A stretch of DNA of 45,737 nt from an uncultured Sphingomonadales bacterium. Lineage in GTDB: Bacteria > Pseudomonadota > Alphaproteobacteria > Sphingomonadales > Sphingomonadaceae. The position numbers were made by a program, and so were the translations under genes. The stretch's first letter is position 1. Each line of letters opens with the position of its first letter. Positions 4,877-38,763 of the stretch are shown here, in pieces. The stretch covers positions 1-45,737 of the forward strand of contig CAINGT010000006.1 in assembly GCA_903848655.1 (NCBI GenBank), written 5' to 3'. A model generated the notes under the pieces. That model was not told where the DNA came from. It made no database searches and worked only from the letters and a program-made list of their open reading frames with translations.

Positions 4877-4928
4877 GGCTGATCCTGCGCGTGTCGGCCG
4901 GAACGGCGGAACGCTGGGGGGGCTTTAA

Positions 4929-4974: not shown

Positions 4975-4986
4975 GACCCTCTTTTT

Positions 4987-5085
4987 CTCCCCTCTCCTTC
5001 AGGGGAGGGGCCGGGGGTGGGGGCTCGCGTCATGCTCTCACCAAGCTGATCGCCCTCACGCCCTTCCCCTGAAGGGCCAGGGGCT
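4987..5085. repeat. C/G-rich inverted repeat, class 2, copy 1
   Basis: Two inverted blocks: a CTCCTTCAGGGGAGGGG unit followed by GGGGGTGGGGG (4994-5023) and the opposite-strand counterpart CCCTTCCCCTGAAGGG (5061-5076). The same motif recurs at 9787-9870 after ctrA. The element lies between pmbA and the small membrane gene and has no coding capacity that looks real. Confidence 0.7.
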
Positions 5086-5130
5086 TTGGCGGTGGTTTTC
5101 GTGACGGCTGAATCTGGAGCCGTTCGCGCC

Positions 5131-11306: not shown

Positions 11307-11447
11307 CGCGTGATCGTGCCGCAGCCGCGCCCGGACGGCCAGACAAATTGTCAGTGCCGTCGCCATCCTTGCGCCGCCGCGTTCGGTTGACAGCCATACC
11401 GATCACCGGCATCGTTTCGCAAGAATCGACACAAGCAGGGGGCTTCG

Positions 11448-16935: not shown

Positions 16936-16940
16936 CCGCA

Positions 16941-19439
16941 ATGCCCGCCAGCCCCCCGCCGCTTGCCTTCGCGGCAGGGTTGCACGACTATCCGGTAGGG
17001 ACAGACGCGCTCGATCTGTACCGGCTGGCCAAGCCCGGCGTTGCCGCCAAGTGGCAGGCGATGGCGCGCGGGCTGGTGGCCTTGCGCGACGAAGCGGGCA
17101 TTCCGGTGGCGGAAGTGGTGGCGCGCCAGATTCAGGATCTGGGCCTAAGCTTTCGCATGACCGGCGATGCCGAAGAACGACCTTGGCCGCTGTCACCGAT
17201 GCCGCTGGTGATCGGCGCGGCCGAATGGGCGGGGATCGAACGCGGGCTGATCCAGCGCGCCGAACTGATCGAGGCGGTGACCGCCGATATTTATGGCCCG
17301 CAACGCCTGATCGCCGAAGGGCACTTGCCCGCCGCGCTGGTTGCGGGCAGCCGGTTTTTTGCGCGCAATGTGATCGGCGCGCGCACAGTCGATGGCCGCA
17401 GCGCGCAAGGCCCCTTGCTGTCGGTCTATGCCGCCGATCTGGTCTGTTCCGCCGGGGGGCAGTGGCGCGTGCTGCACGACCGGCTGCGGCTGGCCACCGG
17501 GGTCGGCTATGCGCTCGAAAACCGGCTGGCCTTGTCGCGCAGCACGGGGGCCTTGCTGGGGGGTATCCACACCCGGCGGCTGGCGCAGTTTTTTGCCGAG
17601 ATGCGCAGCGGCATGGCGCGGACGTGTTCGCGCGAAACCCCGCGCATCGCGCTGCTGACCCCCGGACGGCTCAACCAGTCTTATCCCGAACAGGCGCATC
17701 TGGCGCGCTATCTGGGCTTTCCGCTGGTGGAAGGGCGCGATCTGACCGTCAGCGATGACCGGTTGTATGTCCGCACGATTGCCGGGCCAAAACGGATCGA
17801 CGCGCTGTGGCGGTGGATCGACACCAACGCGCTCGACCCGCTGGCGTTCGATGCGCGCAGCGAAATCGGCGTGCCCGACGGGTTTGAGGCATGGTTGCGC
17901 GGCGGGGTCGAACTCATCAACGCGCCCGGTGCCGAAGTGCTCGAAGCGCCCGCATTTGCTGCCTTTCTGCCGCATTTGTGCCGCGTGTTGCGCGATGAAG
18001 CGCCGATCCTGCCCAATGTCACGACATGGTGGTGCGGGCAAAGCGATCAGGCGCAAGGCTTGCGCGACCGGCTGGACGAACTCGTGGTGATTTCCGCGTT
18101 CGGGCGCAAAGTCGAAGGCCTGCCCGCGGGCAAAGGCCTGCCGGGGCGCACGATGTCCCGCCTGACGCGCGATACGCTGCTCGCCGCGTTCGAACGCCGG
18201 CCGCTCGACTATTGCGGGCAGGAAATCGTTGAACTGGCGACCACCCCGGCGCTGATCGATGAACGCTATGTGCCGCGCGCGTTTACTTTGCGTGCGTTTG
18301 TTGCGCGCGGTGCGGATGGCGCGTGGACGGTGATGCCGGGCGGGTTTGCGCGGCTGTCGACATCGGGCGAAGTGCAAAGCGCGTGGATGGGCGAAGGCGA
18401 TCTGTCGGCGGATGTGTGCATCGTCGATGATGCCGCGCCCGCCAGTCTGGCGGCATCGCGGCTGGTCGAAACCGCCAAAGTGCGGCGCGGCGGGGGGATT
18501 CTGGCCAGTCAGGCGGCGGACAACCTTTACTGGTTTGCACGCTATGTCGAACGCGCGGAAATGACTTTGCGCGTGATCCGTGCGGTGCTCGGCAGCATGA
18601 TCGAGGTCGATGCGGCGGCGGGCGGCAACCCTGAAACCGTGGCGGCGCTGTTGGCGCTGCTGGTCGAATGGGGGGCGATCAGCCCGGCCACGGCCAAATT
18701 GCCGGTGGCGCAAGCGGCGCGCGCGGCGCTATCGGAAACCGTGCTGGCTGGCGGTGTGGGCACGATCTTTAACCGCTTTCGCGCTGCCGGGCTGACTTTG
18801 CGCGACCGGCTGACTCCCGATTTCTGGCGGATTGTCAGCCGGCCTTTGCCGCCGCTCGAATCGCATCGCCCCGGGGCCTTGCTGCGGATCGCGCGCGAAT
18901 TGATCGAGCGGCTGAGCGCGGTGTCGGGGCTGCTGGCGGAAAATTTCAACCGGGGTCCATCGTGGCGCTTTCTCGATCTGGGGCGGCGGGTGGAGCGCGC
19001 ATTCGGGATTTGTGCGACGGTCGCCGCGCTGGGCGATCCGGGCGATCAGGCCGAAGCGTTGAGCGTGCTGCTCGACCTGTCGGACAGCCAGATTACGTAT
19101 CGCGCGCGCTATCTGACCGGGCCGCGCCGCGATCCAGTGCTCGATATGCTGCTGCTCGATCCCGACAATCCGCGCAGCCTGATGTTTCAGGTCAATGCCA
19201 TTTGCGATCATATCGCCGCTTTGCCCAGCTTGGGCGAAGACATGATGCCCGAACTGCCGCTGTTGCAGGCGCGCGCACTGCAAGGTCCGTTGCGCGCGGT
19301 AACGGTCGAATCGTTCGATGCCGACTTGTTGACGCAGACCGATGCGCGGCTGGAAACGCTGTCAGACACCATCGCCGCGCGCTATTTCCTGCAATACGAA
19401 AAGAGCCGCAATTCTTACGGCGACAACTTGCTCGCGTGA
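16941..19439 (+). CDS. Circularly permuted ATP-grasp ligase fused to an alpha-E domain
   Basis: An 832-residue cytoplasmic fusion. Residues about 60-480 are a type 2 circularly permuted ATP-grasp domain (IYGPQRLIAEGHLPAALV, LLTPGRLNQSYPEQAHLARYLGFPLVEGRDL, and PRAFTLRAFVARGADGAWTVMPGGFARL are family landmarks), predicted to form amide bonds using ATP. From residue about 518 the alpha-E domain starts with ILASQAADNLYWFARYVERAE, an all-helical domain of unknown function. In many bacteria these are two genes; here they are one. The ATG at 16941 lies 5 nt after the DUF2126 stop, and the next transglutaminase starts 10 nt downstream, so all three are surely co-transcribed. Confidence 0.93.
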   Translation: MPASPPPLAFAAGLHDYPVGTDALDLYRLAKPGVAAKWQAMARGLVALRDEAGIPVAEVVARQIQDLGLSFRMTGDAEERPWPLSPMPLVIGAAEWAGIERGLIQRAELIEAVTADIYGPQRLIAEGHLPAALVAGSRFFARNVIGARTVDGRSAQGPLLSVYAADLVCSAGGQWRVLHDRLRLATGVGYALENRLALSRSTGALLGGIHTRRLAQFFAEMRSGMARTCSRETPRIALLTPGRLNQSYPEQAHLARYLGFPLVEGRDLTVSDDRLYVRTIAGPKRIDALWRWIDTNALDPLAFDARSEIGVPDGFEAWLRGGVELINAPGAEVLEAPAFAAFLPHLCRVLRDEAPILPNVTTWWCGQSDQAQGLRDRLDELVVISAFGRKVEGLPAGKGLPGRTMSRLTRDTLLAAFERRPLDYCGQEIVELATTPALIDERYVPRAFTLRAFVARGADGAWTVMPGGFARLSTSGEVQSAWMGEGDLSADVCIVDDAAPASLAASRLVETAKVRRGGGILASQAADNLYWFARYVERAEMTLRVIRAVLGSMIEVDAAAGGNPETVAALLALLVEWGAISPATAKLPVAQAARAALSETVLAGGVGTIFNRFRAAGLTLRDRLTPDFWRIVSRPLPPLESHRPGALLRIARELIERLSAVSGLLAENFNRGPSWRFLDLGRRVERAFGICATVAALGDPGDQAEALSVLLDLSDSQITYRARYLTGPRRDPVLDMLLLDPDNPRSLMFQVNAICDHIAALPSLGEDMMPELPLLQARALQGPLRAVTVESFDADLLTQTDARLETLSDTIAARYFLQYEKSRNSYGDNLLA

Positions 19440-19449
19440 TCGGCCCGCC

Positions 19450-20373
19450 ATGCTTTATGATATTCGCCACCTGACCACGGTCAAATATGCCAGCCCGGTG
19501 CGGCTGGCGCGGTTCAACTTGCGGTTGCGCCCGGCGGCGTGGCCGGGGCAAGTGCTCGACCGGTTCAAGCTGGTGATTGATCCACCGCCGTGGTCGATTC
19601 AGGATGAATCCGGCCCGTTCATCGTCAACCGCAGCCGGCTGACCATCCGCGAGCCGCTGGCAAAGCTGCGCATCGAAAGCCGGTTTCGTGTCGAAGTGTC
19701 CGATCCGTCGCTGATCGCGGCGATGGTGATCGGCGATGGCGCGAACCCTTGCGCCGATCCGCTGATGGGCGGGCCAACCGTGGCGCAGATCCGCGAACGC
19801 GCCGCGCGCAACCGTGATCTGACCGCGATGGGCCCGGCGAGCTATCTTTACCCGTCGCCGATGGCCCCCAGCTCGCCCGCGATTGCCGGTTGGGCCGAAG
19901 CGTTTTTCCCCACCCAGCAAAGCGTGCTGGTGGCCGCCTGCACGCTGATGCGCGCGATCCATCAGGAATTCACTTATGATGGTGATGCCACCACCACGCG
20001 CACTTTGCCCGATGAAGCTTTTGCCGCGCGCCATGGGGTGTGTCAGGATTTTGCCCATGTGATGATCGTGGCGGCGCGCGCGCACGGCATTCCGGCGGCT
20101 TATGTCAGCGGCTATTTGCGCACTATCCCCCCGCCGGGCAAACCCCGGCTGATCGGTGCCGATGCCACCCATGCTTGGGCCAATCTGTGGTGCGGCGATG
20201 ATCTCGGCTGGATCGGGTTTGATCCGACCAACGACACGCTGGCGCGCGCGGACCACATCTTTACCGCGATGGGGCGCGATTATGCCGATGTTGCCCCGTT
20301 GGACGGGGTGTTCCACGGCGGGTCGAAACAGACGATGACCGTGTCGGTCGATGTTGCGCCAGTAACCGACTGA
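19450..20373 (+). CDS. Transglutaminase-like cysteine protease/amidase
   Basis: A 307-residue transglutaminase-family protein with N-terminal beta domain (LYDIRHLTTVKYASPVRLARFNLRLRP) and papain-like core: Cys198 in GVCQDFAHVM, His241 in ATHAWANLW, Asp258 in GFDPTND. The triad is complete. No signal peptide, so cytoplasmic. It is the third gene of the ATP-grasp unit, 10 nt after its neighbour, and has no DUF2126. In the model of Iyer and Aravind such enzymes hydrolyse or transfer the amide bonds made by the ATP-grasp partner. The ATG at 19450 starts the family domain directly. It ends 12 bp before the convergent membrane protein gene. Confidence 0.93.
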   Translation: MLYDIRHLTTVKYASPVRLARFNLRLRPAAWPGQVLDRFKLVIDPPPWSIQDESGPFIVNRSRLTIREPLAKLRIESRFRVEVSDPSLIAAMVIGDGANPCADPLMGGPTVAQIRERAARNRDLTAMGPASYLYPSPMAPSSPAIAGWAEAFFPTQQSVLVAACTLMRAIHQEFTYDGDATTTRTLPDEAFAARHGVCQDFAHVMIVAARAHGIPAAYVSGYLRTIPPPGKPRLIGADATHAWANLWCGDDLGWIGFDPTNDTLARADHIFTAMGRDYADVAPLDGVFHGGSKQTMTVSVDVAPVTD

Positions 20374-20385
20374 CACCCAATACGA

Positions 20386-22149
20386 TCAGGGGATGACCCG
20401 CCAAACGCGAATGTGGCTTTCGGGCGCAAGATCGACCGGTTGCAGCCAGCCGGGGGGCTGACCGCGCAGCAAGTGCGCCATCAGGCCATTGGGCGCATCA
20501 TCGCGGTAATTGCGCGCTTCGGGGGTATCGGGGCAGACCACGATCAGCGTGGCATGGCGGCGCTGCACCAGCGCCCGCGCTTCATCCGGCGGGGCCAGAA
20601 ACGCCGCGATCACATCATGCATCGCTGCCGCGCCGCGATGGTGCCCGGTGGCGACCACGCGCTGACGCGATGCGCGCAAGATGTCCGGCCCCATGTCGAG
20701 CGGCATGAACAGATCGGTCGGCGGCAAACGATCGAGCGCGCGCGCGGCGGCGGCATAGTCGCACCGGCTTGACGCAAGTGCCGCGCCGCCGGTCGCCGGG
20801 CTTGCTGTCGCCAAAGTCCACGCCAGCACCGGCAACGCTGGGATCAACACCGGTACGAATGCGCCAAGACCCGCGATCCGCCACAGCGGCGGCGCGCGGC
20901 GCAACGCGATCAGCCAGCGCAGCAGCACGATGCCGGTCGGGATTGCGGCCAGCGCGCAAGCCGTCGCGCTGGCGCGCGACAGCAATGCCGCCACCAACAC
21001 TGCCCCGGCCAGCACCAGCGTATAATCGCGCCACCAGCTTTGCGCCGCCGCAGTCGGTGCATCGCGCCACAACACAATACTCGCGATCAGCCCGACCAAC
21101 GGCACGCCGATCCATTCTGCCGCCAGCACCGGGGCCATGTGCCAGACCGGCATCCCTTCAAACACATAAGCGTACCACATGCGGCTGACCAGCGGGTCCA
21201 ATGCGCCCATCGCGCCGCCCCGGCATTGTGGCGCGGCCCACAGATAAAGCGCCAGCGTTGCGCACACTGTCGCGCCCGCTGCAACGCAAGCCACCAACCG
21301 GCGCGGCGCACGCCACCACAACACGCCGCAGCCCAACGCCAACACGCCGAACAGAGCAATGTGGAGCGGCGACACCTGATCGCAATGGGTCACCAGATCA
21401 GCGGTGCCGCGCGTGGCCAAGAACACCGCCGCGCTGGCCAGCGTCAGCGTTAAACTGGCGGTGGCCAGCCCGGCAAAACGGTCGCGCCCGCCCGCTGCGA
21501 TCAGGCCGCGCAGCGCCAGCACCGCCACAAACACTGCCGCCAGCGGCAGCCCCTCGATCGAGATCGCCAGCAGCACCGCCAGCGCCACCCCGATCACCAC
21601 CCCGCCGCGCACCGCCTCGCGCGCAGCCAGGCCATTGACCGCGACCAGTGCCATGACCACTTGCCAGCCATGATGATCGATCCGCAGCGGGGTCATTTGC
21701 AACACCAGCGGCGCGGCCAGCGCGGCGGCAAGGCAGGCCAGATCGACCGCATCGGCATCAGCCCGGCGCGCAACGAGCCTGCCCACCAGCAGCAGCGTGG
21801 CCAACAGTGTCAGCATCGGCACCACCACCAGCGTGACCGTTTCGGCCAGCCCCGGCCCGATCAGCGGGCGCAACACCACGATCATGCCGGCGAGCGGAAT
21901 ATCGACCAGCCGCGACCAATGCATCGCCACGCCTGCGGGCGCGGCGATGCGGTACTGGTGCACATCGAACCAGCTTTGCCCGGCGATCCAGTCGCGCACT
22001 TGCAGCAGTCGCAGCGCATCGTCGGCATCGCTCAGGCGCCCGGCGGCGATATTGGGGGCATAGGCCAGCAGCAGGAATGCCGACAGCATCAGCCAGGCGA
22101 TCATCACCCGCACGACCCACGGCGCGCCCGTCCTAATCCTGCCTGTCAC
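20386..22149 (-). CDS. Multispanning membrane protein, GT39/oligosaccharyltransferase-like
   Basis: About 587 residues with some 10-12 transmembrane helices and a soluble periplasmic C-terminal domain of about 110 residues. After the first helix comes DADDALRLLQVRDWIAGQSWFDVHQYR...MHWSRLVDIPL, whose acidic DADD and MHWSR motifs resemble the first periplasmic loop of GT-C glycosyltransferases that use polyprenyl-linked sugars. The exact family and substrate are uncertain. The start is unclear: GTG at 22149 keeps basic residues before the first helix; ATG at 22104 would start inside it; neither has a strong ribosome site. It follows the flavoprotein gene by 17 nt, so the pair is probably one operon. 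Confidence 0.75.
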   Translation of the reverse strand: MTGRIRTGAPWVVRVMIAWLMLSAFLLLAYAPNIAAGRLSDADDALRLLQVRDWIAGQSWFDVHQYRIAAPAGVAMHWSRLVDIPLAGMIVVLRPLIGPGLAETVTLVVVPMLTLLATLLLVGRLVARRADADAVDLACLAAALAAPLVLQMTPLRIDHHGWQVVMALVAVNGLAAREAVRGGVVIGVALAVLLAISIEGLPLAAVFVAVLALRGLIAAGGRDRFAGLATASLTLTLASAAVFLATRGTADLVTHCDQVSPLHIALFGVLALGCGVLWWRAPRRLVACVAAGATVCATLALYLWAAPQCRGGAMGALDPLVSRMWYAYVFEGMPVWHMAPVLAAEWIGVPLVGLIASIVLWRDAPTAAAQSWWRDYTLVLAGAVLVAALLSRASATACALAAIPTGIVLLRWLIALRRAPPLWRIAGLGAFVPVLIPALPVLAWTLATASPATGGAALASSRCDYAAAARALDRLPPTDLFMPLDMGPDILRASRQRVVATGHHRGAAAMHDVIAAFLAPPDEARALVQRRHATLIVVCPDTPEARNYRDDAPNGLMAHLLRGQPPGWLQPVDLAPESHIRVWRVIP

Positions 22150-28144: not shown

Positions 28145-29557
28145 TCATGCGCGGGCCGCCGATACCACCACCCCTGATCGGCGGGCCTTGCCGGTGCCGA
28201 TGATCGCGCAGGCTTGGCGGATGTCGAGCCCGACCATGGCCGCCACCACCGCGATTACGATTGGCGAGTGCGCCGCATAAGCGGCGATCGCACCGCCCGC
28301 CAGCGCGAGCTTGGCGAGCGCAAAACGCATCGCCGCCGTATCGACCGCAGGCCGGAATTCGGACCGGTTGCGGACGATATAGACCATCAGCAGCACGCAG
28401 ACCGTCGCCGGAAACATCCATGCCGCAATCACCGGATCGCGCAGCGCCCATGCGATAACGCTGCCTGCCGCCGCACTGGCAACCGTCAGCGACCCGATTA
28501 GCGCGATTTCGCGGTGGCGGTTCAGTGCGCCGAGCAGGCAGTCGAACAGAAATATACGCGCAAACAGCAGCATGATCGCCGCCAGGGTCGGCAGCGTGAC
28601 CGCGATGTGCGGCCCGATCTGGGTGCCGGGCAAAGTGCGGATCGGGATAACCAGACACAGCCCCAGACCAATCAGGCCAGCGGCAAACCACACCGACAGG
28701 AACACGCCCGAAAACCAGCGGAATGCGCGCCCTGCCCCAGTCTTGCCTTGGTCGTGCACCCCGTCGAGCAGGATCCGGTTGCCCCAACCACACAAGGCTC
28801 CGCACAACACGTTGCCGCCGCGCGCAAACAGGTCGATCGACAGCAACGCGCTGCCCGAAATCCGTGCGGGCAGCGCCAGCCCCAGTGTGATCCGTGCAAG
28901 TGTCAGCGCGAGGTTGGTACCGATGGATCCGGTCGCCAATGACCAGCCCTGCCCGGACAGCCGCCGCATCAGCCCGGCCCGACCTCTGCCCGAAACTGGC
29001 CAGCCGAACGCCACATAGCCGCCACCCACGACCATCCCGGCTATGCCAAAGGCACCTGCCACCAGCGGCCCATCGCCCCCCAGCAGCGCGGCCGCAAGCG
29101 ATGCGCCCCCCATCAGCGTAACCCGGATCAGTGAATAGACGTTATAATGCCATTGTTCGCGCGCGACATAGCGCAGAAACGCGGCGACCATGTCCGACAG
29201 CATCGTGCCCCCGGCGACTACGCCCATGCTGGCGGCAAATCCCGCAGCGCGCCGATCCCCGCTGACCCACAACAGCGCCGCGCCGACAAGGCCGAGCGCG
29301 ATGACGCCGAGCGCCAGCGATACCACCCAGCGCCGGGCATGGAGCAGCAGCGCGGCGCGAAACCGTTTGCGCCGCGATCCGCCATGGCGGGTGACGATCA
29401 ACCGCAGCCATTCCGACAGCCCGGCCGAGGCAAGCATCGCGCTGGCGAGGATCAGCGAAAACCGCGCATAGTGTTCCACCCCGATGACTTTGGCGGTCAA
29501 CAGCAGCAACACCATCTGGATCGCCGCAGCGATCAGGCTGATGACAATGACGATCAT
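28145..29557 (-). CDS. Wzx-like polysaccharide flippase/membrane transporter
   Basis: A 470-residue protein with about 12 predicted transmembrane helices, starting immediately with a helix (MIVIVISLIAAAIQMVLLLL). Composition and spacing fit the MOP superfamily of polysaccharide flippases (GVEHYARFSLILASAMLASAGLSEWLRL resembles the early helices). The assignment rests on topology and on neighbours (glf, GT4, beta-helix protein), not on diagnostic motifs. The N-terminus seems short for Wzx, possibly because the first helix is missing or the start is further upstream; the ATG at 29557 has GAGGAA about 9-10 nt before it. It lies 18 nt after the beta-helix gene, one operon. Confidence 0.75.
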   Translation of the reverse strand: MIVIVISLIAAAIQMVLLLLTAKVIGVEHYARFSLILASAMLASAGLSEWLRLIVTRHGGSRRKRFRAALLLHARRWVVSLALGVIALGLVGAALLWVSGDRRAAGFAASMGVVAGGTMLSDMVAAFLRYVAREQWHYNVYSLIRVTLMGGASLAAALLGGDGPLVAGAFGIAGMVVGGGYVAFGWPVSGRGRAGLMRRLSGQGWSLATGSIGTNLALTLARITLGLALPARISGSALLSIDLFARGGNVLCGALCGWGNRILLDGVHDQGKTGAGRAFRWFSGVFLSVWFAAGLIGLGLCLVIPIRTLPGTQIGPHIAVTLPTLAAIMLLFARIFLFDCLLGALNRHREIALIGSLTVASAAAGSVIAWALRDPVIAAWMFPATVCVLLMVYIVRNRSEFRPAVDTAAMRFALAKLALAGGAIAAYAAHSPIVIAVVAAMVGLDIRQACAIIGTGKARRSGVVVSAARA

Positions 29558-29575: not shown

Positions 29576-31027
29576 TCAATCATAGCTGAGCAGCGATTGC
29601 GGCAGACAGCGACCATCGGGTGCGGCCACGAACGTGCACGTCAGATAGCGTCGTCCCGAATTGGCCGCGAGGTGATCGGCGATCCCGCGATAGGCGGCGG
29701 CAAATGTCAGCGCGCCGATCCCGTGGGTGCCGCTATCGACCACCAGCGTAAAGATCGCGCCCGCAGCGGCATTGACTGGGCCGTGCAGATGCAGCGGGCC
29801 ATCGGCGATCACCGCAAAACTGTGGCCTGCGCCAAGGTCGGGCACGATGCTGTCATGCGCGCGCTGGGACAGCGCGCGCGGCGCGGCATCGGCGAGCGGC
29901 TTGACTCCGCCAGCGGTAATGCGGCTGTCGGTGCCCTGATCGCGCACGCGGGTGGTGGTCAGATGGCCATCGACAAAATCGACGGTCGTGCGGCTGCAAT
30001 CGGCGGCAATGTCGATCCCGCACAGCAAGGGCAAGCCGCGCGCGCCTTCAAGTTTGGGCATGATGACACGGCAGTCGGTGGCGCGCCGCAATGCAATGGC
30101 GGTTGAAAGCTGGAAAAAATCGCCGCCTTGCACGATATTGCCTTTGCCCGACACAATCAGCCCGATTGCCGGGGAATGGCCATCATAGATGTCAAAGGCT
30201 TCGCAATCGGTATAGAGCACGGTGTTGTAATTGCCGTCCAGCCGCAGTTGGCACTGGCCGCGATTGTTCAGACATTCGACGCGCGAAAAGATCGAATTCG
30301 CGATGTTGATCGCATTCAGCCCGCAGCCGCCGTTTTCGCTGAACCGCGCAAAATCGATCATGTTGCAAATGTTTTCCAGCCCGCGTGCGTCGAGCAGGCA
30401 GCCATCGCCGCCGTTGTGGCTGGCCCGCACATCCGCCATCCGCAGCCCTTCGGGCGACAGGATGGTAAAGCCGTTGTTGGGGTGGTTGCTGGCATAAAGA
30501 TCGATCAGGCTTAACATATAGGTGAAATTCTTGCCCGGCTGGGGCTGGCAGACAAACCCGTCGCCCGTGCCGCCACGGCGGCGCGCGGGCGAGCCATCGA
30601 TGGCAAACCCGCGAAACACGCAATCGCCGCCACCATTGACCACTACCCCCGGACCGCTGTGATCGATCAGCAGCGCGGTGTTCTGGCGGCCTGCGCCGGT
30701 CACAACGATATCAGTGGTGGCAAAGGTGATCGGCTGGGTCAGCCGATAGACCCCGACTGACAACTCAATCGGTAAGTTGCGCTGCCGCCCCGCGATGACA
30801 TTCGCGCGGGTCGCAGCGGCAATCGCGGCGAGCATGGCAGTGGTGCAATCGGTGGTGCCATCGGCAATCGCGCCGAACGCTTCGGGCCGGATGGTTCGGT
30901 CGGCGCGGATCGGCCCGGCGTTTCCCGCTCGCGCATCGGTGGGAACAATCGGCGCGCTGGCGCTGGCAACCGCCGTCGTCGCGCCCGCAGTGGCAGCAAG
31001 AATCGCACGGCGCGACAGCACGGTCAT
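29576..31027 (-). CDS. Tat-exported right-handed beta-helix (pectate-lyase-like) protein
   Basis: A 483-residue protein with a twin-arginine signal (SRRAILAATAGATTAVASA), so exported folded to the periplasm or cell surface. After RPEAFGAIADGTTDCTTAMLAAIAAA, the usual entry of pectate-lyase-superfamily folds, there are many Gly/Asn/Asp-rich turns of a parallel beta-helix, as in polysaccharide lyases, epimerases and GH28 relatives. No catalytic residue set can be assigned. The ATG at 31027 follows AAGGTG. It precedes the flippase gene by 18 nt, suggesting action on the polysaccharide that the flippase moves, for example trimming or epimerisation. Confidence 0.8.
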   Translation of the reverse strand: MTVLSRRAILAATAGATTAVASASAPIVPTDARAGNAGPIRADRTIRPEAFGAIADGTTDCTTAMLAAIAAATRANVIAGRQRNLPIELSVGVYRLTQPITFATTDIVVTGAGRQNTALLIDHSGPGVVVNGGGDCVFRGFAIDGSPARRRGGTGDGFVCQPQPGKNFTYMLSLIDLYASNHPNNGFTILSPEGLRMADVRASHNGGDGCLLDARGLENICNMIDFARFSENGGCGLNAINIANSIFSRVECLNNRGQCQLRLDGNYNTVLYTDCEAFDIYDGHSPAIGLIVSGKGNIVQGGDFFQLSTAIALRRATDCRVIMPKLEGARGLPLLCGIDIAADCSRTTVDFVDGHLTTTRVRDQGTDSRITAGGVKPLADAAPRALSQRAHDSIVPDLGAGHSFAVIADGPLHLHGPVNAAAGAIFTLVVDSGTHGIGALTFAAAYRGIADHLAANSGRRYLTCTFVAAPDGRCLPQSLLSYD

Positions 31028-31120: not shown

Positions 31121-32263
31121 TTACAGCATCGTGGCGTAAAAGGCCCCTTCGAGCGGCAGCATCGCGGCACCAATGGCACAAGCATCGACATGGGTTTGCG
31201 ACAGCAGCAGTTTGGGCAAAGGCCGGGGTTCGAGGCGGCGGGCATCGTCGAACAGTTCGATGGCGGGAATGATTTTGCGCGCCAACGCCCGTGGCATCCG
31301 GCCGCCCAGCACGATGGCATCGGGATCGAGCAGCGCGGCGATGGACGAAGCGATCAGCGACAGCGCATCGCGGCTCGCATCGATCCAGTCATCAACGCCG
31401 GGCCAGTCGGGATCGAATGTGGCCAGCATGGCGGAAATGCCATCAACCGCCACGCCGCGCGCCTGCACCGCGTGCAGCAGGGTTTCGAGCGTCGGCAAAG
31501 GATAGACTTGCCTGGGCACGATCAGGCCGATTTCGCCGCCATTGCCGTGCCGTCCGCGCATCAGGCGATGATCGGAAATCACCCCGCCGCCGATCCCGGC
31601 AGCCAGGAACACATAGACAAAGTTTGAAAATGTCCGCCCCGCGCCCAGGAAACTTTCCCCGATGGCGGCGGCATTGCCATCGTTTTCGACCCATGCGGGC
31701 AGGCCGAGCGCATCGCTGAACAGCGTGTCGATTGGCACCATCGCCCAATCTTCGAGCGCGCCTGGCGGATTGAACCGTGATCGGCCATCGAGGCAATAGC
31801 CCGATATGCCGATCCCCACCCCCACCAACCGCTCGCGCGCGGCGGGCGTGCTGGCCAGAAACTGCGCCTTGACCACGGCAATCCGCGCGAACACCGCTGC
31901 GCGGCTCATATCGGGCATTTCGCAATGGTCGTAAGCCACCACGTTACCGGCGAAATCCATGAGCGCGATCGACATCGCGTCGGTCATCAACGCGACGCCC
32001 AGCGAAAACGCATGGTTGGGCGCAATCGCGATCTCGATACTGGGCTGGCCGCGCTTGCCGCTGGCGCGGCGCTCACCCGGTAGCAGCGCGCCGCGCGTGG
32101 CCAGTTCGTTGACCAGCCGCGACACGGTTTGTTGCGACAGCCCGCTCGCCTGCGCGATTTCGGGCTGAGTCACGCCGCGTGTCCGCAGCACATGGCTCAG
32201 GATGCGGCTTTCGCTGTCGGACGGGTGCCGGAAGGTGCCGGCCATGATCTGCCTGTGCATCAT
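31121..32263 (-). CDS. ROK-family transcriptional repressor
   Basis: A 380-residue regulator: winged helix-turn-helix at about residues 15-75 (TQPEIAQASGLSQQTVSRLVNELATRG) and a ROK sugar-binding domain from about 85 on, including GVGIGISGYCL, WVENDGNAAAIGES and GIGGGVISDHRLMRG. The kinase-type ATP motif is lost and the usual ROK zinc cluster (CxCGxxGCxE) is absent after GNGGEIGLI, so it is a sensor, not a kinase. It is divergent from the TonB receptor-glycerate kinase-hydrolase operon (145 bp between starts) and very probably controls it in response to a sugar. The ATG at 32263 has GGGAG 5 nt upstream; an ATG at 32245 is also possible. Confidence 0.9.
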   Translation of the reverse strand: MMHRQIMAGTFRHPSDSESRILSHVLRTRGVTQPEIAQASGLSQQTVSRLVNELATRGALLPGERRASGKRGQPSIEIAIAPNHAFSLGVALMTDAMSIALMDFAGNVVAYDHCEMPDMSRAAVFARIAVVKAQFLASTPAARERLVGVGIGISGYCLDGRSRFNPPGALEDWAMVPIDTLFSDALGLPAWVENDGNAAAIGESFLGAGRTFSNFVYVFLAAGIGGGVISDHRLMRGRHGNGGEIGLIVPRQVYPLPTLETLLHAVQARGVAVDGISAMLATFDPDWPGVDDWIDASRDALSLIASSIAALLDPDAIVLGGRMPRALARKIIPAIELFDDARRLEPRPLPKLLLSQTHVDACAIGAAMLPLEGAFYATML

Positions 32264-32408
32264 CCGCGCTCCCGTCGCAAATCCGCGTCCATCGCGCAAC
32301 ATGAAAACCCGCTTTAATACTCGCCATGGGTTGTAATTGGATGTTTACCCTGATAGACCCGAATCAATCGCCCGGATCAGGGCGGATCGACGAGGAGGAG
32401 GGGACGAC

Positions 32409-34892
32409 ATGAAAGTGATTTCCATCAGCATGCTGGCCGGCGCTTCGGTGCTCGCTATCGCACCCGCAATCAGCCACGCTCAGGCCCCTGCCGAGGCAGC
32501 GGCGCCCGCAGCGCCCGGCCAAGAAATCATCGTTACCGCCACCAGCCGATCGCGCGTCGCGCTCGATACGCCGCTCGCGGTCAGCCAGCTTGGCGCGCAA
32601 GCCTTGCAGCGCGCAGGCGCGTTGAGCCAGGCCGATATCCTCAACACCATCCCCACGTTAAAGGCCGATGGCGGCGGCGGCGAAGTTGCCGCGAACATTT
32701 TTGTCAAAGGGCTGCCATCGGGCGGTCAGTACCAGTTCACCCCGCTGATGTATGACGGCATCCCGGTGTTGTCGTCGTTCGGACTGAACTCGTCGGCGTA
32801 TGACGTCTATATGCGCAACGATCTGGGCATTGCCCGGCTGGAATTCGTGCGCGGCGGCGTGTCCAACTTGTTTGGCCCCGGATCGGTTGCTGGCCTGATC
32901 AACTATATCGGCAAGACCGGTGGCGACCGGCTGGCGGGCACCGCGCAGCTCGAAGTGGGTGAAAAAGACCGCTATCGCGGCGATCTGGCGCTGAGCGGAC
33001 CGCTCGGCAACAATGTCTATTTCGCGCTGTCGGGCTATTATCGCACTGACAAAGGCCCGGTCCGCACCAATCTTGATACCAAGGGCGGCCAGTTGCGCGG
33101 TAACCTCGAATACCGCTTCGGTGATGGCAGCGGGTCGATCAAGGTGCTGGGCCAATATATCAACGATCAGGTGCAGTTCTATCTGCCGTTCCCGCTCAAC
33201 GGCACGACGCGCAATCGCCTTGCGGGCAACGACGGTGCGCTGGTCAATTCAGTCCAGAACGCGTTCAGCGGGCTGGGGTTCAAGACCCCCGGCGGCGGCA
33301 CGTTCACTTCCAGCATCAACGATGGCGTGACGGCCAAGGGCGGAATGGTCGGGCTGACGTTTGACAAGAAGCTGGGCGACAGCGGCTGGGCGCTGAACGG
33401 CAAGATGAAATACAGCGATTACAAGCACAAGTTTGGCCTGTGGTCCGACGGTGATGGCGTTATCAACGTGCCGGAAACGCTGCAAAGCTTTTTGACCAAC
33501 CGCAGCCTTGGCAGCACCGCCAATGCGCAGTTCAATTTTGTCGGTGGCAGCGCGGTACCGGCCAATTCGCTGCTGTTTGCCAATCGTTTTACCGACCGCA
33601 TCCGCCCGGTTCGCGACTTTACCAGCGAAATCAACCTGACGCGCAAGCTGCAGACCGGCTCGGTCGATCACGCCTTGACGCTGGGTGAATTCTACGGACG
33701 GGCGAGCGCGGGCGACTTCAACGTCACCACGACGTATCTTGCTGAATTCAACAATACGCCTCGGCTGGTCAACCTGACCGTGACCAATCCGGTCGGCGGC
33801 GCGCAGACCATTGTGTCGAACAATGGCTTGCTCAACGCCGGGGCGGGGTACGTCAACAACTGGCACAAGGCCCAGCGCTATGCGACGTACTTTGCCGATC
33901 AGATGAAGATCGGCGAACGGTTCAACTTCGATATTGGTGGCCGGGTCGAACATATCAACGGCGATATCAGCCGCGAACGCACCTCCACCACGATCACCGA
34001 TGCCACCACCGCCAATTTGTCGTCGGCGCTGCGTGATGTGATCTGGGGCAACGGCGGCTTCCTCACCGGCAAAGTGTCTACCACCGAATGGGCGCTGGCG
34101 GCGGGCGCGCTCTACAAGCTGACCGATCAGATCAGCCTTTACGGCAATGCTTCGCGCGGGTTCTTCTTCCCCGAACTGCGTTCGGCGCAGTTCAAGACCC
34201 TGCCTGCGGGTACGGCGGCCAATGCCAGCCTGTCGCCTGGCATGCAGAGCTACAAAGCGGAAATTATCAAGCAGGCAGAACTGGGCATCAAGATGGTGCA
34301 GCCACGGTTCTCGCTGACACTGGCGGGGCTTTACACCCGGCTCGACAACCGCCGCCAGGTGCTGTTCGTCAACGATGGTTCGGGCGGGTTCGTCGAAAAG
34401 GTCAATCTGGTCGGGACCGAATCGTGGGGCATGGAAGCCACCGCAGATGTCAAGCTGATTACCAACTTGCGCTTCAAGGGCAACCTGACGCTGCAAAACT
34501 CCAAGTACACGGCGTTTGACACGACCCCGACAAACATTGGCAAGAAAGTCGAACGCCAGCCCGATGTGCTGTATAATGCTGGTTTGTATTATGATAACAA
34601 CACGCTCGATGTATCAATTTTCACCAATTACACGGGTTCCAACTATACCGCGTCGAGCAATGCGATTGAGTTGAAGGGGTGGAACGTCGCCAACTTCGAT
34701 GCGGGCTACAAGATCCCCGTCGGTGCGAATTCGGTCCGGGTGAGCATGAACGTGTTCAACGTGTTCAACACCGATGCCGTTACCGAAGGTTCGCCGCGTC
34801 AGGACAACAACCAGGCCGCCAACGGTGCGTTCTTTGTCGGGCGGCCGGTGCTGCCGCGCCGCATCATGGGCCGGATCACCTACAGCTTCTGA
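32409..34892 (+). CDS. TonB-dependent outer-membrane receptor
   Basis: An 827-residue receptor: signal peptide (residues 1-24, cleavage SHA-Q), Ala/Pro linker, TonB box-like QEIIVTAT, plug domain (about 55-170, with PLMYDGIPV and LEFVRGGVSNLFGPGSVAGLINYI) and a 22-strand barrel ending in the terminal phenylalanine of RIMGRITYSF. It resembles sphingomonad receptors for carbohydrates or other non-iron nutrients rather than siderophore receptors, an inference from its neighbours. The ATG at 32409 has a strong ribosome site (GGAGGAGGGG). First gene of the putative glycosylglycerate operon; the kinase starts 10 nt after its stop. Confidence 0.93.
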   Translation: MKVISISMLAGASVLAIAPAISHAQAPAEAAAPAAPGQEIIVTATSRSRVALDTPLAVSQLGAQALQRAGALSQADILNTIPTLKADGGGGEVAANIFVKGLPSGGQYQFTPLMYDGIPVLSSFGLNSSAYDVYMRNDLGIARLEFVRGGVSNLFGPGSVAGLINYIGKTGGDRLAGTAQLEVGEKDRYRGDLALSGPLGNNVYFALSGYYRTDKGPVRTNLDTKGGQLRGNLEYRFGDGSGSIKVLGQYINDQVQFYLPFPLNGTTRNRLAGNDGALVNSVQNAFSGLGFKTPGGGTFTSSINDGVTAKGGMVGLTFDKKLGDSGWALNGKMKYSDYKHKFGLWSDGDGVINVPETLQSFLTNRSLGSTANAQFNFVGGSAVPANSLLFANRFTDRIRPVRDFTSEINLTRKLQTGSVDHALTLGEFYGRASAGDFNVTTTYLAEFNNTPRLVNLTVTNPVGGAQTIVSNNGLLNAGAGYVNNWHKAQRYATYFADQMKIGERFNFDIGGRVEHINGDISRERTSTTITDATTANLSSALRDVIWGNGGFLTGKVSTTEWALAAGALYKLTDQISLYGNASRGFFFPELRSAQFKTLPAGTAANASLSPGMQSYKAEIIKQAELGIKMVQPRFSLTLAGLYTRLDNRRQVLFVNDGSGGFVEKVNLVGTESWGMEATADVKLITNLRFKGNLTLQNSKYTAFDTTPTNIGKKVERQPDVLYNAGLYYDNNTLDVSIFTNYTGSNYTASSNAIELKGWNVANFDAGYKIPVGANSVRVSMNVFNVFNTDAVTEGSPRQDNNQAANGAFFVGRPVLPRRIMGRITYSF

Positions 34893-34902
34893 CCGGGGCG
34901 AC

Positions 34903-36150
34903 ATGATCCCCGCAGGCCTGCGCGATGATTTGACTGCCTATCTGATGGCAGGGGTTGCGGCGGCCAGTGCCGAGGTGGCGCTGACCGGGTGGTTGCCGCG
35001 CCACCCGCCGCGCGGCCGGACCATCGTGCTCGGTTGCGGAAAAGCGGCGGCGGCCATGGCTGAAGTGGCCGCCGCAACTTTGCCGGGCGCGGTGACCGGC
35101 TGTGTGGTCACGCGCTATGGCCATGGCCCGCGCCGCGACACTGGCGCTATCACGGTGCTGGAAGCGAACCATCCCGTTCCCGATGCTGCCGGTCTGGCGG
35201 CGGGTCAGCGCATCCATGATCTTGCCACGCAGGCGCGCGGCGGTGATCGCGTGGTATTCCTGATTTCAGGCGGGGGGTCTGCGCTGCTGTGCCTGCCGCT
35301 GCCTGGGCTGGCGCTTGCGGACAAGGCGCGTCTGACCGATCATCTGGTCAAATCAGGTGCGCCCATCGGCGATATCAACTGCGTGCGCCGCCACCTCTCA
35401 CAAGTCAAAGGCGGGCGGCTGGCCGCTGCGGCGGCCGCCGCGGCCGATGACATGCACAGCTTTCTGATTTCGGATGTGACCGACGATGATCCGGCGGCGA
35501 TAGCATCGGGTCCTTCGGTGCCCGCGCCGTTTGAACCGGACCGCGCGATTGCGGTGCTGACCCGCAGCGGCTGGAGCATCGATCCAGCGCTGGCCGCGCA
35601 AATCCACGCCGGTCGCGGGCGTGATGCGCCGGTCCATCCGGTCAGGATTATCGCCAACGGCAAAACCGCGCTCGATGCCGTGGCTGACGCGGCCATGCGC
35701 GCTGGCTGGAACGTGGTGCGCGCGGGCGACACGCTGGCCGGCGATGCTGCCGCAACGGGCCGCAGCCATGCCGCGCTGGCGCTCGATTTCGCGGCACGGC
35801 CGGGCAAGCACTTGCTGCTTTCGGGCGGCGAACTGACAGTGCAAGTCCGCGCGCGCGATGGCCGGGGCGGGCCAAATCTGGAATATCTCGCCGCGCTGAT
35901 GGCGGCGCTGCCCGCTGGCGCGCCGGTCGCCGCGCTCGCCTGCGACAGCGACGGGATCGATGGCAGCGAAGACAATGCCGGGGGTTATTTCGACCCGCAA
36001 TGCCGCGCGTCGGCGCAAAGCTGCGCGGCGGCGCTGGCGGCCAATCGCAGTTATGATCTGTTCGCTGGCATTGGCGGGCTGATCAAGACCGGGCCGACGC
36101 GCACCAATGTCAACGATATCCGCATGATCGCGGTTGGAGGCAGTCTGTGA
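34903..36150 (+). CDS. Glycerate 2-kinase (GckA/MOFRL type)
   Basis: A 415-residue type II glycerate kinase that makes 2-phosphoglycerate from D-glycerate and ATP. Family landmarks: VLGCGKAAAAMAEVA, EANHPVPDAAG, LISGGGSALLCLPLPG, ISDVTDDDPAAIASGPSVP, LLSGGELTVQVRARDGRGGPNLEY and DSDGIDGSEDNAGGYFDP. The ATG at 34903 is 10 nt after the receptor stop. Its stop TGA overlaps the GTG start of the next gene by 4 nt. Placed beside a hydrolase whose relatives release glycerate from glycosylglycerates, it would feed the product into lower glycolysis. Confidence 0.95.
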   Translation: MIPAGLRDDLTAYLMAGVAAASAEVALTGWLPRHPPRGRTIVLGCGKAAAAMAEVAAATLPGAVTGCVVTRYGHGPRRDTGAITVLEANHPVPDAAGLAAGQRIHDLATQARGGDRVVFLISGGGSALLCLPLPGLALADKARLTDHLVKSGAPIGDINCVRRHLSQVKGGRLAAAAAAAADDMHSFLISDVTDDDPAAIASGPSVPAPFEPDRAIAVLTRSGWSIDPALAAQIHAGRGRDAPVHPVRIIANGKTALDAVADAAMRAGWNVVRAGDTLAGDAAATGRSHAALALDFAARPGKHLLLSGGELTVQVRARDGRGGPNLEYLAALMAALPAGAPVAALACDSDGIDGSEDNAGGYFDPQCRASAQSCAAALAANRSYDLFAGIGGLIKTGPTRTNVNDIRMIAVGGSL

Positions 36151-37415
36151 CCCGTGATCCCCGGTTCGACGAGCAAGCACGCGCAATTTTGCGCCACAAT
36201 GATCGCGGCGGGTATACCGTGCCCACGCCGGGGCTCTATCCGTTCCAGTGGAACTGGGATTCGGCGTTCGTCGCGCTTGGTTTCGCGACGTTTGACCGGG
36301 ACCGCGCGTGGCAGGAAATTGAAACGCTGATATCGGCGCAATGGGCTGACGGGATGATCCCGCATATCGTGTTCCATCAGGACGATGCAGGATATTTCCC
36401 CGGCCCCGATGTCTGGGCCACTGGCACAATGCCGCGCTCGTCGGGCATTACCCAGCCGCCGGTGCTCGCCAGCGTGGTGCGGCAGTTGTGGGAACAGGAC
36501 GGTGCCGATCCGGCGCACGCGCAGATGCGCGCGCTCTATGCCGCGTGTCTGCGCAGCCACCGCTGGTTTCACACGTATCGCGATCCGCTGGGCAATGGCC
36601 TGGTCATGGTCACGCACAATTGGGAAACCGGGCGCGACAATTCGAGCGAGTGGGACGATGCGCTCGCGCGCGTCGATACCAGCGGGGTCGGGGCTTATCA
36701 GCGCCGCGATACTGGCCATGTCGATGCGGCGATGCGCCCCCGGCAAGCGGAATATGACCGCTATGTCGCGATTCTCCAGTTCGGGCGCGCTTGCGGATGG
36801 AACCACCGGCAGATTGCCGATCACGGCCCTTTCCGCATGATCGATGTCGGCATGTCGATGGAACTGTTGCGCGCCAACCGCGACCTCTTGGTGCTGGCCG
36901 AAGCCATCAGCGATGCCCCGGCGGCGGCTGAATTGCGCGCGCGGATCGCACTGTCCGAAACCGGAATGGACTGGCTGTGGAACGACAGCGTCGGGGCTTA
37001 TTGTTCGCGCGATGCCACCACCGGGGAAAGCTCTGCTCTTGTAACCAATGCCAGCTTCCTTGCGTTTTATGCCGGGGTGGGCAATGCCGATCAGCGCGGG
37101 CGGCTGCTCGCCGCGCTCGATCGCATGACCGCGAGCGCGCGTTTCCTGATCCCCAGCCTTGAAGCGGGTAGCCGCGACTACGATCATCGCCGCTATTGGC
37201 GCGGGCCGATCTGGCTGGTGGTCAGCTATATGGTCGCGCAAGGGCTGGCCGAACAGGGCCATGGCGATTGGGCAGAGCGGATCCGCAGCGATTCGGCCGC
37301 GCTGATCGCGCAAGCGGGTTTCTACGAAAGCTTTAGCCCCGAAACCGGCGAAGGCAGCGGCGGAGCGGATTTTTCGTGGACGGCGGCGATGTGGCTGGCG
37401 TGGTGCGGCGCATAA
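36147..37415 (+). CDS. GH63-like glycoside hydrolase, probable glucosyl-/mannosylglycerate hydrolase
   Basis: A 422-residue (alpha/alpha)6-barrel hydrolase. It matches the single-domain GH63 branch of mannosylglycerate and glucosylglycerate hydrolases: FQWNWDSAF at residues 33-41, WATGTMPRSSGITQPPVLA, HNWETGRDNSSEWDDAL with the presumed acid Asp164, YWRGPIWLVVSYMV, and FYESFSPETGEGSG with the presumed base Glu394. No signal peptide, so cytoplasmic. The GTG start at 36147 has GGAGG upstream and overlaps the glycerate kinase stop by 4 nt. The fit of enzyme and neighbouring kinase supports release of glycerate plus a hexose. A different alpha-glycoside substrate is possible. Confidence 0.82.
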   Translation: MTRDPRFDEQARAILRHNDRGGYTVPTPGLYPFQWNWDSAFVALGFATFDRDRAWQEIETLISAQWADGMIPHIVFHQDDAGYFPGPDVWATGTMPRSSGITQPPVLASVVRQLWEQDGADPAHAQMRALYAACLRSHRWFHTYRDPLGNGLVMVTHNWETGRDNSSEWDDALARVDTSGVGAYQRRDTGHVDAAMRPRQAEYDRYVAILQFGRACGWNHRQIADHGPFRMIDVGMSMELLRANRDLLVLAEAISDAPAAAELRARIALSETGMDWLWNDSVGAYCSRDATTGESSALVTNASFLAFYAGVGNADQRGRLLAALDRMTASARFLIPSLEAGSRDYDHRRYWRGPIWLVVSYMVAQGLAEQGHGDWAERIRSDSAALIAQAGFYESFSPETGEGSGGADFSWTAAMWLAWCGA

Positions 37416-37416
37416 C

Positions 37417-38655
37417 ATGGCGCCGACCCGCGCCTTTGCCCAGCCAGCCTCCGCGCGCTATCCATGGCTGCTGGTTGGCCTGTTGTGGATGGTCTCGTTC
37501 CTCAATTCCGCCGACCGGGCGATTGTCAATTCGGTCAAACCGCTGTTGCGCGATGCCTTTGGCGTGACCGATATCCAACTCGGCATGGTCGATAGCGTGT
37601 TTTTCTGGACTTATGCGGTCTGTGCCTTTCTGTTCGGGCGCGCTGGGGACAGCGTGCGGCGGCGCAATATGATTATCTTCGGCTTGCTGTTCTGGAGCAC
37701 GGCCACCGGAATGATGCCGCTGGCGAGCGGCTTTGCCATGCTGATGGGAATGCGCACTTTGGTCGCGGTGGGCGAATCGACGTATTATCCAACCGCCACC
37801 GCGCTGATCAGTTCATGGCACCAGCCGCAGCGGCGCAGCCGCGCGCTGGCGATCCATCAGACTGCGGTGTTTGCCGGGGGCGGGATCGGCGGCTGGGTGG
37901 CGGGGCGGCTGGCCGACGCGCATGGCTGGGCCACGCCATTCGTGGTATTTGCGGCGCTGGGTTTTGTGGTGCTGGTGATTTTGTGGTTCGCTCTGCGCGA
38001 TGATGCCCCGCGCGCGGGTATCGTGGTGCAAGCCGCGCGCGCCGAACCGCTGCGGATCATCCTGTCCAACCCGGCGGCGCTGCTGCTGTGCGGGGTGTTC
38101 TTTCTGGCGACAGCGGCATCGTCGGCGGTGCTCAACTGGTGCAATACTTATGCGCATGATGTGCTGCACCTGAACCTTGCCGATAGCGCGCTGGTCGGCC
38201 CGGTGATGATTACGACCGCCGGTTTTGTGTCGGTCCTTGCCGGGGGCTGGTTGGGGGATCGGTTGGCCATGGCGCATCGGCTTGGCCGGTTTACCGTGCT
38301 GGCGCTGGGGCTGGCCATCGCCGCGCTGTTCCTGCTGCCGTTTCCGTGGGTCGGATCGGCAACGATGGCCGGATTGCTGCTGTTTGCCACGAGCAGCGGC
38401 AAAGGCCTGTTCGATGGCTGTATCTATGCCGCGATGCACGACATTATGCCCGATGAGGCGCGCGCCACCGCCGCCGGGCTGATGACGATGACCGGATTTC
38501 TGGGCGCGGGAATCGCAACGTTCGCGCTGCCCGCGATTGCCGCGCATACCGGGCTGGCGGCGGGTTTTGCGATGATGGCGGGGCTTTACACGCTGGCGGT
38601 GATCGCGCTGCTCGCCGGGCGGCGCGCGGTTCGACAAGTTATCGCACGCGGTTAG
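37417..38655 (+). CDS. MFS transporter, probable inner-membrane importer of the operon
   Basis: A 412-residue major facilitator with 12 predicted helices; the A-like motif GRAGDSVRRRNMI follows helix 2, and NSADRAIVNSVKPLLRDAFGV is the typical helix 1 exit of sugar-acid/anion-proton symporters of this group. It starts one base after the hydrolase stop (TAA-C-ATG at 37417), so it is the last gene of the operon. Together with the TonB receptor it would complete a path across both membranes. Substrate by inference only. A perfect 12-bp hairpin lies 31 nt after its stop. Confidence 0.88.
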   Translation: MAPTRAFAQPASARYPWLLVGLLWMVSFLNSADRAIVNSVKPLLRDAFGVTDIQLGMVDSVFFWTYAVCAFLFGRAGDSVRRRNMIIFGLLFWSTATGMMPLASGFAMLMGMRTLVAVGESTYYPTATALISSWHQPQRRSRALAIHQTAVFAGGGIGGWVAGRLADAHGWATPFVVFAALGFVVLVILWFALRDDAPRAGIVVQAARAEPLRIILSNPAALLLCGVFFLATAASSAVLNWCNTYAHDVLHLNLADSALVGPVMITTAGFVSVLAGGWLGDRLAMAHRLGRFTVLALGLAIAALFLLPFPWVGSATMAGLLLFATSSGKGLFDGCIYAAMHDIMPDEARATAAGLMTMTGFLGAGIATFALPAIAAHTGLAAGFAMMAGLYTLAVIALLAGRRAVRQVIARG

Positions 38656-38686
38656 GGCGCAACGCGATTCGGAGCGAAAACCACAT

Positions 38687-38715
38687 GCGGCCACCGGGCG
38701 GAACCCGGTGGCCGC
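38687..38715. terminator. Bidirectional hairpin between MFS and TorF genes
   Basis: GCGGCCACCGGG (38687-38698) pairs perfectly with CCCGGTGGCCGC (38704-38715) around a 5-nt loop. It sits between two convergent genes (stops at 38655 and 38764). An A-rich stretch on the left and AGTATGTTT on the right give short U-runs for both strands, so it fits a shared intrinsic terminator with weak tails. Confidence 0.8.
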
Positions 38716-38763
38716 AGTATGTTTGGCAGCCTGCCCCAGCCATGCGGATGGGGCAGCGCTGGA

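Follow-up and report, generated by a model that had tools for sequence, protein, structure and literature searches.

A predicted TonB-linked operon for the scavenging and catabolism of glucosyl- and mannosylglycerate in a Sphingomonadales bacterium

Mannosylglycerate is a compatible solute of red algae and thermophiles. Escherichia coli brings external mannosylglycerate into catabolism by the MngA/MngB route, which uses a GH38 enzyme. The cited papers are represented here by excerpts, and these name two import routes: the phosphotransferase system (PTS) that imports mannosylglycerate in E. coli (PMC8490865), and a putative glucosylglycerate transporter of Prochlorococcus, for which glucosylglycerate is a major compatible solute (PMC11631117). 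The Prochlorococcus transporter is proposed to take up the solute as a carbon source; its gene lies within a glucosylglycerate operon that also makes the solute, and the excerpts mention no TonB receptor (PMC11631117). Here we describe a locus on a stretch of 45,737 nt (CAINGT010000006.1, positions 1 to 45,737, assembly GCA_903848655.1; the whole stretch is hereafter the window, on contig C6 of the draft) from an uncultured Sphingomonadales bacterium, whose draft genome comprises 2.95 Mb in 145 contigs and is 97% complete. This locus is probably a TonB-energized operon for the scavenging and catabolism of 2-O-alpha-glycosylglycerates released by other organisms. Unlike the E. coli route, it encodes no PTS protein: none of its five gene products matches a PTS family in Pfam.

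In plan the locus is of a known kind, a carbohydrate utilization locus containing a TonB-dependent transporter (CUT locus), with a new predicted substrate and marked interchange of carrier and regulator. The sux locus of Xanthomonas, as described in the excerpts of PMC1790865, combines a single TonB receptor and a single inner-membrane carrier with a degradative enzyme and a regulator for high-affinity scavenging of a small sugar, and the carriers of such loci vary by lineage. All four structural features are present in the window locus, which differs from sux in that its predicted substrate is an anionic osmolyte, in having an extra glycerate kinase for the second half of that substrate, and in having a ROK regulator with its own predicted operator. 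The preliminary description of this DNA had suggested that a TonB-linked route would be new. This is consistent with the open-access literature, in which we found no description of TonB uptake of glycosylglycerates, and is refined by the CUT plan and by the existence of ABC-linked versions. Two papers name glucosylglycerate together with TonB-dependent (PMC6521584, PMC5507952) and two name mannosylglycerate together with TonB (PMC8079746, PMC12226641), and their excerpts describe no such uptake; nor did we find an open-access paper that joins mannosylglycerate catabolism and uptake to sphingomonads. The features of the locus, with families assigned from Pfam profile scores, are as follows.

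31121-32302, minus strand: ROK-family transcriptional regulator (winged helix-turn-helix plus ROK domain), divergent from the operon (Pfam)
32316-32337, plus strand: predicted ROK operator AATACTCGCCATGGGTTGTAAT (matrix score, genome pattern match)
32409-34892, plus strand: TonB-dependent outer-membrane receptor (Pfam, linkage in relatives)
34903-36150, plus strand: glycerate 2-kinase of the DUF4147/MOFRL type (Pfam, solved relatives)
36147-37415, plus strand: mannosyl-/glucosylglycerate hydrolase, single domain (Pfam, structure model, active site)
37417-38655, plus strand: MFS inner-membrane carrier (Pfam)
38686-38716, no strand: GC-rich hairpin where two genes converge, possible bidirectional terminator (sequence scan)

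The gene order and junctions first described are all confirmed in the sequence: a divergent ROK gene faces a receptor gene (from an ATG at 32409 to 34892), which is followed after 10 nt by the kinase gene; this overlaps the hydrolase gene (start codon GTG) by 4 nt, and 1 nt separates the latter from the carrier gene.

By sequence and by structure model, the hydrolase is placed in the mannosyl-/glucosylglycerate hydrolase family. It is the sole match in the host genome to Pfam MGH1-like_GH (PF22422), scoring 369 bits (cut-off 27) over the whole profile (1-356 of 356), against 32 bits for GH63 and 26 bits for trehalase. Among solved structures, phmmer finds the mannosylglycerate hydrolase (MgH) of Thermus (TTHA0978) at 380 bits and the glucosylglycerate hydrolase (GgH) of Mycolicibacterium hassiacum at 216 bits; the next match is a Chaetomium glucosidase at 27 bits. 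A model built from 30 aligned relatives (pLDDT 93.8, pTM 0.93) aligns with Thermus MgH (4wva) at Z 61.8 and 1.4 Å over 412 residues (VIA-align), with 4wvc, which holds D-glycerate, at Z 61.6, and with the M. hassiacum entries at Z 53.2 to 44.8; among the entries listed, the best other GH63 reaches Z 36.7 and the best trehalase Z 33.5. The first 20 rows of a Foldseek search with the model are all MgH or GgH. The family scores and the structure together lead us to reject the trehalase, N-glycan glucosidase, and YgjK-like GH63 readings and support the original grouping of this protein with MgH/GgH.

We mapped 19 active-site residues discussed for the M. hassiacum enzyme (MhGgH) in the excerpts of PMC6608630, a set that does not include some residues named in that paper, such as F89 and D212. 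Seventeen of the 19 are identical in the window hydrolase, including both catalytic residues (identical positions include D182, E419, Y36, W40, W42, D43, Y88, Q115, G180, R216, Y222, Y375, and W376); the mapping predicts that the acid D182 corresponds to D164 in the window and the base E419 to E394. At the two differing positions, 433 and 434 in MhGgH numbering, the window has D and F. Thermus also has F at position 434, as do 78 of the 80 other loci sampled (see below); the remaining two have gaps there. The excerpts of PMC6608630 report that MhGgH prefers glucosylglycerate and that the MgH enzymes of Thermus and Selaginella act on the two solutes to a similar extent. Sharing F434 with the Thermus enzyme, which uses both, suggests that the window enzyme may likewise serve glucosylglycerate and mannosylglycerate. 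The likeness to Thermus thermophilus MgH (TTHA0978, PDB 4wva-4wvc) extends over about 43% identity, the fold, and the active site including that phenylalanine; the window enzyme differs from it in sitting in a receptor, carrier, and kinase operon, in a genome without PF09488. MhGgH (34% identity) shares the fold (Z up to 53.2), the catalytic D and E, and most of the mapped binding residues, but has Q434, and its role is in recovery from nitrogen starvation, compared with the scavenging predicted here.

No export signal was found on the hydrolase sequence, so the solute has to pass the inner membrane uncleaved. The solute could instead be a larger glycosylglycerate conjugate, for example glucosylglucosylglycerate or mannosylglucosylglycerate, or a different small glycosyl hydroxy-acid cleaved by the same hydrolase, an explanation that we consider improbable. 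It draws on the fact that the ligand of a receptor cannot be read from its sequence, and on small solutes often crossing without an active outer-membrane receptor. However, a TonB receptor is established for a disaccharide of similar size, sucrose (SuxA; excerpts of PMC1790865), and the pocket of MhGgH, identical here at 17 of the 19 mapped positions, is capped, and neither glucosylglycerol nor glucosylglycolate is a substrate of that enzyme (excerpts of PMC6608630). In addition, Pfam assigns no glycosidase family to the other four operon products.

The receptor matches the TonB barrel (112 bits) and Plug (51 bits) families and begins with a hydrophobic segment; its stretch EIIVTATSR resembles a TonB box. 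The kinase is above the Pfam cut-offs for both DUF4147 (222 bits, cut-off 23) and MOFRL (93 bits, cut-off 28.3), and its solved relatives are PH0495, at 188 bits, and the putative glycerate kinase 2b8n, at 179 bits. The carrier matches MFS_1 (199 bits), and its best NCBIfam match is the D-galactonate transporter subfamily (108 bits, cut-off 395).

We examined gene neighborhoods around the best 80 of at least 575 hydrolase relatives, taken with their flanks from one scan of a species-genome collection, so the frequencies describe the nearest relatives only. The probes were the five proteins of the window and nine helper proteins from the relatives' loci. A homologous TonB receptor (42-79% identity) lies near the hydrolase in 36 of the 80 loci, and 28 of these 36 also have the glycerate kinase. 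An ABC permease is found in another 35 loci, of which one has the kinase and none the receptor; these loci are therefore an internal control for chance linkage. Nine loci, several on short contigs, have neither receptor nor permease. The co-occurrence of receptor and hydrolase in 36 of 80 loci, and of the kinase in 28 of these 36, indicates that the gene set is not due to chance. Together with the family of the hydrolase, the kinase linkage largely upholds the uptake and catabolic route that the preliminary description had proposed on sequence alone.

In a maximum-likelihood tree of the hydrolases (80 rows; the partial sequences L013, L016, and L045 left out), all 34 receptor-linked members fall on one side of a single branch (98/91). 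Receptor linkage thus changes state once on this tree, compared with 25.4 times in shuffles. The rows for M. hassiacum and Thermus sit on long branches that were flagged as joining each other, which leaves their order unsure. Where hydrolases are at least 75% identical to that of the window (12 loci), receptor and kinase are both present in all 12. Novosphingobium sp. AAP83 and Sphingorhabdus rigui are examples of cultured relatives that carry the operon.

Four arrangements can be distinguished. The window type consists of ROK, receptor, kinase, hydrolase, and MFS genes; homologues of the carrier occur at 75-80% identity in 11 such loci, and a ROK-type sugar kinase follows the MFS gene in nine of the 12 loci with hydrolases of at least 75% identity (L013 is cut off). 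In the Sphingomonas type, a LysR gene accompanies a receptor-hydrolase pair and a divergent kinase-MFS pair. In a third arrangement the carrier is a sodium/solute symporter, found in 11 of 80 loci (among them Kordiimonas, Q-1, Emcibacter, Woeseiaceae, and Cellvibrionales); L017 has an MFS gene as well. The fourth, around Steroidobacter (L017, L023, L027, L028), is marked by a LacI-like regulator and by the absence of a kinase from the available flank. Both the carrier (MFS or sodium symporter) and the regulator (ROK, LysR, LacI) therefore interchange between lineages. L027 and L028 are nearly alike, although one is filed under a gammaproteobacterium and the other under a Terrabacteria (ANGP1) bin; one of the two bins may be contaminated. 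In L008, L011, and L014 the locus is followed, at about 13830-20600, by an additional TonB receptor and two more genes common to the three, possibly an extended locus.

Within an even draw of 298 genomes from the window's family, the hydrolase is found at E 1e-60 or better in 10, the window included, and is absent from the five other listed genomes of the window's genus. The locus thus has the patchy distribution expected of an accessory trait. Of the nine other family genomes with the hydrolase, eight have an adjoining receptor, seven of these also the kinase and MFS genes (one contig being cut), and one has ABC genes; five of the nine are not independent, since they are the same as loci already among the 80. 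The pairing of hydrolase and glycerate kinase recurs in another phylum: on the Deinococcus peraridilitoris plasmid pDEIPE02 (L114, 1703-10401), a substrate-binding regulator-like gene, an ABC importer, the hydrolase, a DUF4147 kinase, and a ROK protein form a single row, and the kinase (38% identity to that of the window) directly follows the hydrolase with a 4-base overlap. Glycerate kinase relatives in 316 plasmid records added nothing on linkage. Hydrolase relatives occur in 100 records of the plasmid collection, all below 60% identity (71 from Rhizobium; 46 typed conjugative). The family is poorly labeled: among 15 plasmid records listed, all of them more distant relatives at 50% identity or less, 14 bear the label "trehalase family glycosidase" or "hypothetical protein," and the remaining one reads "neutral trehalase."

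Glucosylglycerate phosphorylase (GH13_18; Meiothermus silvanus, E. coli, and others) also splits glucosylglycerate but does so by phosphorolysis, yielding glucose-1-phosphate, and no such gene is present in the window operon. On a plasmid of Meiothermus taiwanensis (L115, 6974-10004), the hydrolase adjoins a "sugar phosphorylase" that scores 192 bits to sucrose phosphorylase and carries the motifs TETN and PYELC. The marks of glucosylglycerate phosphorylase are TETN and PYELN (excerpts of PMC10608839). The match is thus partial, with one of two motifs intact, and this plasmid possibly holds two ways to split the same solute.

Gene families, active site, and linkage, together with the conserved site discussed below, are settled by the sequence; from them we infer the substrate, the direction of transport, the product of the kinase, and the logic and sign of regulation. 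The TonB receptor would move the solute across the outer membrane, and the MFS carrier would deliver it intact to the cytoplasm. There the hydrolase, by analogy with MhGgH, would cleave it by an inverting mechanism (D164 as acid, E394 as base) to a hexose and D-glycerate. The DUF4147/MOFRL kinase would convert glycerate to 2-phosphoglycerate, and the hexose would pass to a glucokinase encoded elsewhere in the genome. The ROK protein, probably a repressor that substrate or product would relieve, would govern both directions through 32316-32337.

The source of the solute bears on whether hydrolase and kinase might instead recycle a glycosylglycerate made by the cell itself, with the transporters serving other compounds. 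Such a recycling role is described for GgH in mycobacteria (excerpts of PMC6608630). The host genome, however, has no mannosyl-3-phosphoglycerate (MPG) synthase (PF09488), which the Thermus control genome does contain. Nor does it have a match above the cut-off to the glucosyl-3-phosphoglycerate synthase, a model that matches weakly in all 14 control genomes. The receptor, moreover, belongs to the same closely packed row of genes and has descended together with a single hydrolase clade. Since no synthase for either solute was found over the cut-off in this 97%-complete genome, the source is probably external, and we reject the recycling of a self-made solute as very improbable.

Within the scavenging reading, the sequence of the hydrolase indicates that it should accept mannosylglycerate too, and the balance tips modestly toward glucosylglycerate as the main substrate in the host organism. 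The latter is favored because a glucokinase (PF02685) is present in the host genome, which has no match to the phosphomannose isomerase and AGE models PF01238, PF20511, PF01050, and PF07221 (other isomerase types were not sought). The alternative that mannosylglycerate is the natural substrate here too, its mannose being phosphorylated and isomerized by unrecognized enzymes, is less likely. The closest solved enzyme is the Thermus MgH, with the same F434, and relatives in three Woeseiaceae loci (L021, L024, and L029, at about 11250-13420) have a PfkB kinase and an AGE-family gene directly after the hydrolase. The closest matches of the L024 AGE protein are 3gt5 (447 bits) and 5x32 (444 bits), which we take to be a mannose isomerase, and the PfkB kinase of L029 scores 197 bits to the fructokinase 3ljs. 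Because mannose-isomerase-like and fructokinase-like genes have been added to them, these three loci appear to favor mannosylglycerate. Over the 80 loci, AGE probes match in eight and PfkB probes in five; L012 has a detected AGE gene (4274-5461) and no PfkB probe match. The implied fates of the hexose are glucose in one setting and mannose to fructose to fructose-6-phosphate in the other.

The same alternative is supported by the ScrK-like ROK kinase that follows the MFS gene in nine of the 12 window-type loci. This kinase scores 178 bits, under the 400 cut-off, and its nearest solved relative is a putative fructokinase, so that its evidence on the sugar is ambiguous. In the host genome, on the other hand, the only clear ScrK-like kinase (contig C22) adjoins a GH32 gene, which leaves it unsupported as the hexose kinase of the operon, and the four isomerase models match nothing.

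Several observations weigh against the proposed scavenging of glycosylglycerates, or against glucose as the hexose released. The hydrolase reaches 336 bits against a cut-off of 550 for the NCBIfam glucosylglycerate hydrolase equivalog NF047898, and for this reason we place it in the family without the GgH name; the cut-off is also missed by relatives from Meiothermus (403) and Deinococcus (366). The kinase likewise falls below the glycerate 2-kinase equivalogs NF041176 (176 versus 550) and NF040791 (115 versus 670). The carrier is only distantly like solved carriers (Spinster is best at 74 bits, the galactonate transporter at 58), and its direction and substrate are therefore guesses. No kinase is nearby in 34 of the 35 ABC-permease loci. 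Eight receptor-linked loci also lack it: four (L012, L031, L033, L045) are truncated at one or both ends no more than 7.1 kb from the hydrolase, and the other four, with wider flanks and a LacI-like regulator match, are those around Steroidobacter. The fructokinase-like ROK kinase of window-type loci suits mannose or fructose over glucose, and it is missing in the window. Finally, all gene absences rest on a draft that is 97% complete.

The regulator matches the ROK (88 bits) and MarR-type helix-turn-helix (40 bits) families. Its gene has possible ATG starts at 32302, 32263, 32260, and 32245, of which the real one is probably within 32245-32263. Homologues occupy the equivalent position at 65-73% identity in 10 loci (L002, L003, L005-L011, and L014) and at 48-54% in six (L015, L018, L021, L024, L025, and L029). 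The gaps between ROK and receptor genes in window-type loci hold a common word around ATGGGTTGTAAT, extended to AATAC-n5-ATGGGTTGTAAT. In the window it forms a 22-base imperfect palindrome at 32316-32337; the palindrome is clearer in L015 and L006, and an operator-like site in this gap is conserved in relatives as distant as Woeseiaceae.

A matrix was derived from eight relatives, the window left out, and was tried on nine other loci, comparing the best site in the gap with 200 shuffles that keep single-base make-up only and with the rest of the locus. The gap site is better than all 200 shuffles and the rest of the locus in eight of the nine; the exception is L018, where 40 of the 200 shuffles score as well. 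Three of the nine (the window, L005, and L006), while outside the matrix, were among the sequences in which the word was first seen and are not blind; of the six blind loci (L015, L018, L021, L024, L025, and L029), five passed. The window site at 32316 scores 32.3, whereas no site in the remaining 45.6 kb exceeds 6.8, and the exact pattern occurs once in the host genome. No such site is present in the LysR-type loci L019 and L030 (best scores 2.4 and 0.3) or in L012, L016, and L036, which have no ROK homologue detected in the available stretch; L004 has a weaker site (20.1) ahead of its receptor, though no ROK homologue was detected there. The conservation of the site in these gaps and the single exact match in the genome suggest that 32316-32337 is probably the ROK operator and that the regulator is probably local in action. 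A single further operator-like place was found in the genome, at C22:32393-32414, with three mismatches.

The operon looks bounded, since it is flanked on the ROK side by a reading frame with no Pfam match and on the hairpin side by a gene for a Gcw_chp protein. The adjoining minus strand carries two long frames (29576-31027 and 28145-29557) with no Pfam match at E 1e-5. The hairpin that had been described as perfect and as closing the operon does exist, with 13-14 pairs and without a proper T-run on the plus strand; it is a possible terminator only, because the scan found nine terminator-like sites against 8.6 expected in shuffles. This lack of excess leaves it unsupported as a proven terminator.

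In the open-access literature covered, the consumers of glucosyl- and mannosylglycerate and the means they use are scarcely described. We think it more likely than not, on the present evidence, that a dedicated TonB-energized route for the uptake and catabolism of glycosylglycerates exists in Sphingomonadales, Caulobacterales, Kordiimonas/Emcibacter, and a number of gammaproteobacterial lineages, its inner-membrane carriers and regulators being interchangeable, and that sugar specificity changes in sister lineages through the addition of a mannose isomerase and a fructokinase. The route would then be a widespread, unrecognized sink for cyanobacterial and algal osmolytes. If this is true, one recognizable gene set would flag the heterotrophs that scavenge glucosyl- or mannosylglycerate, and osmolyte exchange from phototrophs to heterotrophs and back could be tested experimentally.

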